A DNA stretch of 64,000 nt. It comes from Aestuariivirga litoralis (lineage in GTDB: Bacteria; Pseudomonadota; Alphaproteobacteria; Rhizobiales; Aestuariivirgaceae). The notes under the pieces were generated by a model, which was not told the DNA's origin, made no database searches, and worked only from the letters and a program-made list of their open reading frames with translations. The stretch covers positions 62,001-126,000 of the forward strand of contig NZ_QKVK01000001.1 in NCBI RefSeq assembly GCF_003234965.1. The letters run 5' to 3'. This document shows, piece after piece, positions 53,338 through 55,304 of the stretch (position 1 is the stretch's first letter; every line of letters starts with the position of its first letter). Made by a program: the position numbers and the translations under genes.

Positions 53338-53388
53338 GGCTCGAAAGGCGCCTCGATCACCAATCCAACCTGTTTGCAGAGGTAGCAC

Positions 53389-53832: not shown

Positions 53833-54036
53833 ATGATCCGCTACGCCATCATCCTGATCGCCGCCATGGGCACCGTCGCCGGCGCCGCCGCGATGCAGAA
53901 TGCGCCCGCTGCAGCGCAGTCGGCCCCCCTCACCAACCAGACCGTGATCGAAAAGAACAGCCCCTTCCCGGTGCTGGGCCCACTCGTCGTCACCGAATGC
54001 CGCCTCGACGACTGCTCGGACGTTCCTAACGGATAA
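53833..54036 (+). CDS. Secreted C-x4-C peptide 1 of a tandem family
   Basis: A 67-residue predicted secreted peptide: signal peptide with cleavage near AAAMQ/AQSA, then a mature part of about 37 residues with TVIEKN (37-42), PFPVLGPLVV (44-53) and Cys56-x4-Cys61. The same block recurs in the genes at 54291 and 54637. No known family is recognised. Strong ribosome site GAGGGGAAGACA. A C-rich-loop hairpin and terminator follow, so it is a monocistronic unit. Confidence 0.75.
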   Translation: MIRYAIILIAAMGTVAGAAAMQNAPAAAQSAPLTNQTVIEKNSPFPVLGPLVVTECRLDDCSDVPNG

Positions 54037-54102
54037 TTCATGCGCGGCCGCCGCCAGCGGCATTGAATAATCACATTCAGCTCCCAACATGTTTCCCATC
54101 CC

Positions 54103-54142
54103 CAGGCAGTACTTCCCCCCCATCCCCTGCAAACACTGCCTG
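54103..54142 (+). ncRNA. C-rich-loop hairpin, copy 1, in the 3' region of peptide 1
   Basis: CAGGCAGT (54103-54110) pairs perfectly with ACTGCCTG (54135-54142). The 24-nt loop (54111-54134) starts ACTTCCCCCCC and ends CCCTGCAAAC. The same loop, one C shorter, sits in a different stem at 54505. CTTCCCC in the loop is complementary to GGGGAAG of the peptide 1 ribosome site. Possible 3'-derived regulatory RNA or mRNA structure; expression not proven. Confidence 0.55.
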
Positions 54143-54150
54143 TACCTGAA

Positions 54151-54181
54151 CCCCGGCCGCCAACTGCGCCGGGGTTTTTTT
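54151..54181 (+). terminator. Intrinsic terminator of peptide 1
   Basis: CCCCGGC (54151-54157) and GCCGGGG (54168-54174) with a 10-nt loop, then seven T residues. Strong. Confidence 0.9.
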
Positions 54182-54290
54182 CTCGCCGCCAACAAAGTTT
54201 CCGAAAACTTAACGGGTGTGACGCGCGTTACAGTCCCAACCCCGGCCGTGGCCTACAAAGGGACCATCAAGACCGACGGGAACCACGACA

Positions 54291-54494
54291 ATGAAGCGCA
54301 CCACCCTTTACATGCTGATCGCCCTGGCCACCGCCGCAAGCGCGCTCGCTTCGGTGTCGCCCAAGGAAGCCACCTCGATCGAACCCGCATCGCGCAACGA
54401 AACGGTGATCGAGAAGAACCAGGCCTTTCCGCTGGTGGGCCCGCTCACCGTGCAGGAATGCCTGAACGAGGACTGCACGCAACTTCGAAGCTGA
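54291..54494 (+). CDS. Secreted C-x4-C peptide 2 of a tandem family
   Basis: A 67-residue peptide: signal peptide to about ALASV (residue 21), then TVIEKN (38-43), AFPLVGPLTV (45-54) and Cys57-x4-Cys62. Closest to peptide 1, about 450 bp upstream. Followed by a second copy of the C-rich-loop hairpin and a GC-rich terminator. Ribosome site is weak (GACGGGAACCACGACA). Function unknown; location expected in the periplasm. Confidence 0.75.
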   Translation: MKRTTLYMLIALATAASALASVSPKEATSIEPASRNETVIEKNQAFPLVGPLTVQECLNEDCTQLRS

Positions 54495-54504
54495 CGATTT
54501 CCCT

Positions 54505-54543
54505 GGGCCGCCACTTCCCCCCATCCCCTGCAAACGGCAGCCC
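54505..54543 (+). ncRNA. C-rich-loop hairpin, copy 2, in the 3' region of peptide 2
   Basis: GGGCCGCC (54505-54512) pairs with GGCAGCCC (54536-54543), seven of eight positions. The 23-nt loop (54513-54535) is ACTTCCCCCC... to ...CCCTGCAAAC, the same as in copy 1 minus one C. The stem bases differ from copy 1 while pairing is kept, which is covariation. A terminator follows. Confidence 0.55.
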
Positions 54544-54553
54544 ACAACTTGGC

Positions 54554-54588
54554 GGCCCCGGGCTTCGCGCCTGGGGCCACCATTTTCC
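54554..54588 (+). terminator. Terminator of peptide 2
   Basis: GGCCCCGGGC (54554-54563) pairs with GCCTGGGGCC (54569-54578), ten pairs including one G-T, loop TTCGC, then ACCATTTT. Same order as in the peptide 1 unit: gene, C-rich hairpin, GC terminator. Confidence 0.75.
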
Positions 54589-55221: not shown

Positions 55222-55304
55222 CCGTCACCCCGGCGAAAGCCGGGGCCCCGCTTCGGGCGGCAGTCGCGCGGAAAGCGGGGTCCCGGCTTTCGCCGGGATG
55301 ACGG
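55222..55304. repeat. REP-like palindrome pair, family A
   Basis: CCGTCACCCCGGCGAAAGCC at the left and the inverted unit ending CGCCGGGATGACGG at the right. Lies between the six-cysteine gene and the carB leader. Confidence 0.85.

Follow-up and report, generated by a model that had tools for sequence, protein, structure and literature searches.

Two hairpins that share a C-rich loop and stand behind two small-peptide genes are best read as trans-acting small RNAs that pair with the 5' leaders of porin mRNAs and probably repress their translation, a reading to which we give a probability of about 0.78. The window, i.e. the whole stretch of 64,000 nucleotides analysed here, is part of contig C1 of a 4.23-Mb genome (the own genome, G000, in the comparisons below). 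The pairing of the loop with the leader is well supported by sequence comparison; we infer the transcription of the RNA, its processing, and repression rather than activation. Because the loop is a near-perfect mirror of the leader and both have changed together, the hairpins very probably represent a porin-controlling regulatory RNA that has not been described before. The open-licence literature on Aestuariivirga, alphaproteobacterial porin sRNAs, RopA1 and C-rich loops holds no description of it among the matches listed.

A duplicated hairpin and its family

By our assignment of the genes, the locus has purE/purK and rpsU upstream and carB downstream, and between rpsU and carB it encodes three small secreted peptides (67, 67 and 68 aa) and a 107-aa protein. 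The features, in window positions, are:

53833-54036, + strand: peptide 1 gene, 67 aa, with a signal-peptide-like N terminus (by eye) and two Cys near the C terminus
54063-54091, + strand: candidate promoter of copy 1, TTGAAT - 17 nt - AACATG; the start would lie just before the stem
54103-54142, + strand: hairpin copy 1, stem 54103-54110/54135-54142, loop 54111-54134 with the core ATCCCCTGCAAA (seed)
54149-54181, + strand: intrinsic terminator of copy 1 (AACCCCGG...CCGGGGTTTTTTT) with 7 T; helix 2 of the 35-copy alignment
54217-54232, + strand: palindrome TGTGA-N6-TTACA upstream of peptide 2, which we take to be a CRP/FNR-like site
54291-54494, + strand: peptide 2 gene, 67 aa, a paralogue of peptide 1
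54504-54544, + strand: hairpin copy 2, stem 54504-54512/54536-54544 with one C-A mismatch, loop 54513-54535
54550-54582, + strand: GC-rich hairpin 3' of copy 2, terminator-like, without a T run

The duplicated hairpin is confirmed. The initial annotation had described two loops identical save for one C, which is what we find: the loop of copy 1, ACTTCCCCCCCATCCCCTGCAAAC, has 24 nt and that of copy 2 has 23 nt. It had also described stems that differ and still pair. For copy 1 the pairing is perfect, with all 8 bp of CAGGCAGT/ACTGCCTG formed and a fold of -11.2 kcal/mol (z -3.18; 2 of 200 shuffles equal or better), but copy 2 pairs imperfectly, its 9-bp stem TGGGCCGCC/GGCAGCCCA including the mismatch and its fold of -12.6 kcal/mol reaching a z of only -1.47 (14 of 200 shuffles equal or better). 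The terminator claimed after each hairpin holds for copy 1, and not for copy 2, where ACCATTTT follows the GC hairpin in the place of a T run; a simple terminator consensus scan of the window calls neither 54149-54181 nor 54550-54582. The loop pattern ACTTCCCCN{0,3}ATCCCCTGCAAA has two matches in the whole genome, both of them the loops of the window, and a control pattern has none.

Of the 61 genomes searched, 32 have the peptide, all of them within the genus, and 30 loci were fetched. Among the 15 peptide loci carrying names, two are Aestuariivirga sp. and the rest are various Hyphomicrobiales, alphaproteobacterial or broader. Hairpins are present in 29 of the 30 loci, with 41 copies counted after six core-like matches outside 3'UTR hairpins were dropped (L027 2616, L029 3058, L030 649, L035 586, L037 587, L039 585). 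The core TCCCCTGCAA is exact in 40 of the 41; the lone variant, in a search that allowed one mismatch, is TCCCCTGCAC in L047 (G024). The stems include CAGGCAGT/ACTGCCTG, GGGCGGCC/GGCCGCCC, CAAGCAG/CTGCTTG, GCCAATGG/CCATCGGC (one mismatch) and GGACAGC/GCTGTCC. With 41 genus copies and covarying stems, the hairpin goes beyond chance. In G013 the loop core is absent from the peptide 3'UTR and the site from the porin leader; the 12-mer ATCCCCTGCAAA occurs once elsewhere in this genome, without an open hairpin loop or a terminator.

Since a second alignment (A2) had left the 5' arm unaligned, a third one (A3) was started at the stem; both lack six of the 41 copies (L033, L036, L038, both of L040, L047). 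Among the 35 copies of A3, 94.9% of the cells are paired, double changes occur at 10 of 17 pairs versus 5.9 in shuffles, and the covariation score is 0.303 versus 0.145 in shuffles; the slid controls favour the structure, because the structure was drawn from the same copies. Helix 1, in which five GGTCCCC copies count as gaps, has double changes at 6 of 8 pairs and 94.5% of its cells paired. Further pair types (18 versus 20.6) are not above the shuffles. A functional RNA marked by a conserved loop and a covarying stem, as had been proposed, is thus borne out by the copies of the genus. The suggested search of related genomes with a model built from the copies gives the same answer: of the 37 genus genomes, 32 have a match to the model (R1) at E <= 0.001, a count that includes the training copies. 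In G014, G016 and G033 the core is present and the match to the model is weak or absent. At E <= 0.01, 28 of 199 genomes of the order have matches; four that were read outside the family (L171-L174) have no core, and two of the four have CCTCCTCCC loops.

Several related hairpins are observed. The model also matches a hairpin with another loop, TGTCTCCCTCCCCC, in G000:C12, G029:C15 and G035:C511. It belongs to a second hairpin-terminator family (L212, G000:C12:408866-408932, minus strand; seen also in G029, G035 and G001), which resembles cuckoo RNAs and lies between the genes of an operon that we assign as YqjD/YqjE-like. A third copy, recognised by eye, has the loop CCCCTATCCCCTGCAAACCCC and lies in G000:C20, with a similar one in G001, and a copy of this third type in G034 sits behind another small secreted-protein gene; the minimum-energy folds of the third copies do not show every stem drawn by eye. 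In many species outside the clade of the window, a second hairpin, A (GGAACCGGGG...CCCGCCCCCTCGC...CCCCGGTTCC), lies 5' of the main one, as seen in the 3'UTRs of L033, L034, L036-L038, L040, L044, L047 and others. For the target of its loop CCCGCCCCCTCGC, the list of matches to GAGGGGGCGGG before ATG gives no consistent gene.

How would the RNA be made? For copy 1, an RNA of some 75-85 nt probably arises from its own promoter. Of the 13 copies that have the stem CAGGCAG, 12 show a TTGAA box that precedes the stem by 38-40 nt and is separated by a 17-nt spacer from AACATG, GATATG or a similar hexamer; it is the best sigma-70-like pair in only 6 of those 12, the copy of the window not among them, and a promoter scan of the window finds no promoter-like site. 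The gene of peptide 2 ends 9 nt before the stem of copy 2, which therefore lies in its 3'UTR. With this distance from the stop codon and no such box by eye, copy 2 should come from the mRNA and is probably released from the 3' end of the peptide 2 message. A 3'-derived small RNA, which had been considered plausible, is a reasonable form, and copy 1 has a candidate promoter of its own in addition.

Against Pfam and NCBIfam the peptides give no family above the cut-off, peptide 2 having sub-threshold Pfam matches only. The motif TGTGA-N8-ACA upstream of peptide 2 is kept in 10 of 10 genomes compared, the own one included; the porin promoters carry a different palindrome, CTGTGGC...TTACAG. Before carB lies a large REP-like palindrome (window 55226-55301), which has sub-threshold matches to a plant miRNA family on both strands (L018 2893-2969).

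The porin leader as probable partner of the loop

The complement of the loop, TTGCAGGGGATGGGGG, occurs exactly four times in the own genome: once in each of the two loops, and once in the 5' leader of each of two porin-like genes that stand in tandem. The 16-mer TTGCAGGGGAYSGGGG likewise has four occurrences (two loops, two porin leaders), where base composition by itself predicts 0.006. The exact complement of the loop, TTGCAGGGGATGGGGGG, stands before the same gene in G000, G031, G011 and G018. Before start codons the complement has 55 matches in 37 genomes versus 2 for the reversed pattern, a count that includes overlapping matches and a control that is unfair for DNA bearing Shine-Dalgarno sequences.

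The target gene appears porin-like by family, as judged from sequence. Its protein in G000 has 492 aa, a signal-peptide-like start (by eye) and the C-terminal end DLVSVWRF, and its complete relatives mostly have 349-516 aa (one has 689, and one is interrupted at 105). Among 16 proteins compared with Pfam, two match Porin_2 (best 2.8e-9) and two match Porin_4 (best 3.7e-6); the G000 protein itself has no Pfam porin match, nor is there a substantial match in the PDB. Of the 30 porin loci fetched, 25 have the site upstream. Among the remaining five, L113 and L118 begin at the edge of a contig, and L098 (a paralogue in G011), L117 (the only porin read in G019) and L121 (G013) have no site; L206, a G001 paralogue, is a further porin-like gene without one. 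The distance from the end of the site to the Shine-Dalgarno sequence is 20-24 nt in 31 of 33 leaders and 17 and 26 nt in the other two. A TTGAC box and a GA-AA box, spaced as in a promoter, are common to the leaders upstream of the site, which should therefore lie in the 5'UTR.

The initial annotation had the loop pair with purine-rich ribosome sites, that of peptide 1 among them. We do not retain this, the best-supported target being a 16-18 nt stretch of the porin leader. It is literally true that CTTCCCC can pair with the GGGGAAG before peptide 1, but only 3 of 12 genomes, the own one included, have GGGGAAG at this place, and pairing with this ribosome site is rejected. Other candidates are not general. 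In the rpsU leader (window 53370-53380), TTTGCAGAGG is complementary to the loop in part; as a target it is rejected, having one mismatch and being seen in only six genomes including the own one. A search for the rpsU start motif in the other loci finds none. The sequence TTGCAGGGGAT lies directly before genes that we name ihfA-like or ferredoxin-like in L070 (G028), L191 (G005) and L196 (G023). An ihfA-like leader (G028, G031) and a ferredoxin-like gene (G005, G023) are possible as extra targets specific to a lineage.

We turn to the co-variation of loop and leader. In the 29 genomes where both are found, the contiguous complementarity within a genome is 11-21 nt. The search required leaders with TTGCAGGGGA(T/C)(C/G)GGG and loops with the core at no more than one mismatch, so that the search itself fixed the first 10-11 nt and the test lies in two free positions and the flanks. 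Three states are seen, with loop/leader CAT/ATG in 12 genomes, GAT/ATC in 10 and GGT/ACC in 6, and both variable positions fit in 28 of 29 genomes, or in 27 of 28 without G019, whose site, at the edge of its contig, has no visible porin next to it and is not linked to one. The misfit is G033, a single copy with loop CGT and leader ACC; G006 and G017 each have one additional copy that misfits. Counted as pairs of own loop and own leader, 48 of 53 fit, and the five misfits include a chance one-mismatch row for G036; the 53 pairs leave out the six dropped core-like matches, one chance match in L179 and the third copies. The mean duplex energy is -37.0 kcal/mol for own pairs, -37.5 for other genomes of the same state and -30.8 for a different state. 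The leader of G012 is cut before an ORF, as is that of G005, which was added later and fits (GAT/ATC); no leader was found for G016, G021, G026 or G030.

In a tree of CarB from 30 genomes, the three states occupy successive groups, which requires two concerted changes. The relevant branches have 100/100 and 100/99 support, while the root and the position of G019 are weak; uneven base composition was warned of for many rows, and G006, G011, G012 and G033 are among the genomes absent. With only two concerted changes, the co-variation rests on few events. By sequence, then, the loop has a conserved and co-varying complementarity to an mRNA leader in trans, as expected of a trans-acting base-pairing RNA.

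Outside the genus, G349 (same family, another genus) carries CCCCCCGATCCCCTGCAAA at three intergenic places, at two of which the sequence folds into a hairpin with the core in its loop, and it has TTTGCAGGGGA before two tandem porin genes and not before a third. Its locus L260 (G349:C5:254500-260500) contains three similar intergenic stretches of about 150 nt with the 16-mer, the minus strand reading CCCCCCGATCCCCTGCAAA; no relative of the small peptides is seen among the ORFs listed. In G259, also of the family, two of the seven porin matches have a variant leader, TTTCG(T/C)AGGGGATCGGGG; a loop matching it would read CCCCGATCCCCT(A/G)CGAAA. No site is found before the porin matches of G061, G169 and G386. 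Single 16-mer matches elsewhere in the order (G059, G166, G236, G255, G256) look like chance.

Proposed direction of regulation and alternative readings

The proposed mechanism would work as follows. The RNAs would form a small multi-copy family in which a short stem of free sequence presents the loop, of 23-24 nt in this case, and a terminator or a terminator-like hairpin comes next. The loop would pair with TTGCAGGGGAT(G/C)GGGG in the 5' leader of the porin mRNA. In the free leader this G-run could pair with a conserved CUCC; once the sRNA occupies the G-run, the CUCC would be freed to fold onto the Shine-Dalgarno sequence (UUGGGAG), and porin translation would fall. The combination CTCC...GGAG is found in 33 of 33 leaders from 27 genomes, where it could fold onto the Shine-Dalgarno sequence, and the G-run of the site with the leader CTCC gives -5.6 to -8.8 kcal/mol. 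In silico, the mean accessibility of the Shine-Dalgarno sequence is 0.29 in the free leader versus 0.21 with the site blocked, and it is unchanged or reversed in some leaders. These folding models weakly suggest such a switch in the leader.

The same RNA and target could also work in the opposite direction, the pairing activating or stabilising the porin mRNA by opening the leader or by masking an RNase site. We consider this unlikely. The site lies upstream of the Shine-Dalgarno sequence and not on it, its G-run can also pair inside the leader, and GsrN of Caulobacter activates katG with a C-rich loop on a G-rich leader (PMC5869019). Against these points, blocking the site in silico lowers rather than raises the mean accessibility, the CUCC that faces the Shine-Dalgarno sequence is kept in every leader, and the C-rich loops of sX13 act as repressors on G-motifs, one of which precedes the AUG by 21 nt (PMC3771888). 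Repression is weakly preferred, because the CTCC is kept and blocking lowers the mean accessibility. In GsrN and sX13, as in our RNA, a C-rich loop pairs with the G-rich leader of an mRNA; for those two, pairing is described over 4-7 nt with many candidate targets, while here it extends up to 21 nt with a porin family.

A general anti-Shine-Dalgarno RNA of the cuckoo type, acting on many purine-rich ribosome sites, comes near to the view of the initial annotation and seems quite improbable to us. There is a likeness: cuckoo and CcsR RNAs of Rhizobiales and other Alphaproteobacteria have a conserved C-rich loop and fast-changing stems, with a terminator (PMC3927594), and the CcsR RNAs arise downstream of a gene for a small protein (PMC3927594, PMC10253847). 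This architecture of conserved loop, variable stems and terminator is found here as well, copy 2 lacking the T run. The model R1 finds CCTCCTCCC loops in other families, TTGCAGGGGA also stands before other ATGs (the 55-versus-2 count and its unfair control), and in G000 and three relatives the site is directly 5' of an in-frame upstream ATG of the porin. The loop, however, is conserved past the C-run through TGCAA and co-varies with the porin leaders, and the 16-mer is limited to loops and porin leaders in the own genome. The cuckoo loop is CCUCCUCCC and the neighbour of CcsR is DUF1127 (PMC3927594, PMC10253847), whereas the loop here is CCCCCCAUCCCCUGCAAA, or in full ACTTCCCCCC(C)ATCCCCTGCAAAC, without CCUCCUCCC, and the peptides have no family, giving only sub-threshold matches unrelated to DUF1127.

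A plain stabilising hairpin or protein-binding site of the 3'UTR, for which the location behind small genes would speak and in which loop and leader would share a protein or DNA motif on opposite strands, is barely credible, since loop and leader are reverse complements that change together at two positions and the stem covaries as RNA.

Relation to known systems and meaning

Small RNAs control porins in enterobacteria (MicF, MicC, RybB), and CpxQ is a 3'UTR-derived sRNA from the gene of an envelope protein; these use Hfq-dependent seeds, and the comparison with them is one of description. In Rfam 15, only tRNA is above the gathering threshold in the window and in 15 of the loci from relatives. 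In those loci the hairpins have sub-threshold matches only, among them Betaproteobacteria_toxic_sRNA (31.9 of 50), suhB (25.3 of 41) and ar14 (24 of 58.8). Among Alphaproteobacteria, ChvR of Caulobacter crescentus represses chvT through two stem-loops (PMC6237742). It is likewise a structured sRNA, its stem-loops pairing with the 5'UTR of the mRNA for an outer-membrane transporter, where one site lies far upstream at -70 to -59; compared by description only, it differs in having its own sRNA gene under ChvI-ChvG, two loops, and the TonB receptor chvT as target (PMC6237742).

A wider picture can be put forward only tentatively, and we think it may well not hold: the gene arrays of the tiny secreted two-cysteine peptides would double as factories of porin-silencing RNA, every peptide message ending in a hairpin with the whole 23-24 nt loop, in place of a short seed, as antisense to the porin leaders, pairing over up to 21 nt in a long duplex fit for RNase III, and peptide and RNA would act jointly on the envelope, the stems drifting and the loop and its target co-evolving.

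As a trans-acting RNA on porin leaders, the hairpins would add a family of porin-controlling sRNAs whose target can be named, in a branch of Hyphomicrobiales without such a report among the open-licence papers listed. They would offer a natural record of the co-evolution of loop and target, open to compensatory mutation, and would tie uncharacterised secreted micropeptides to the regulation of the outer membrane.
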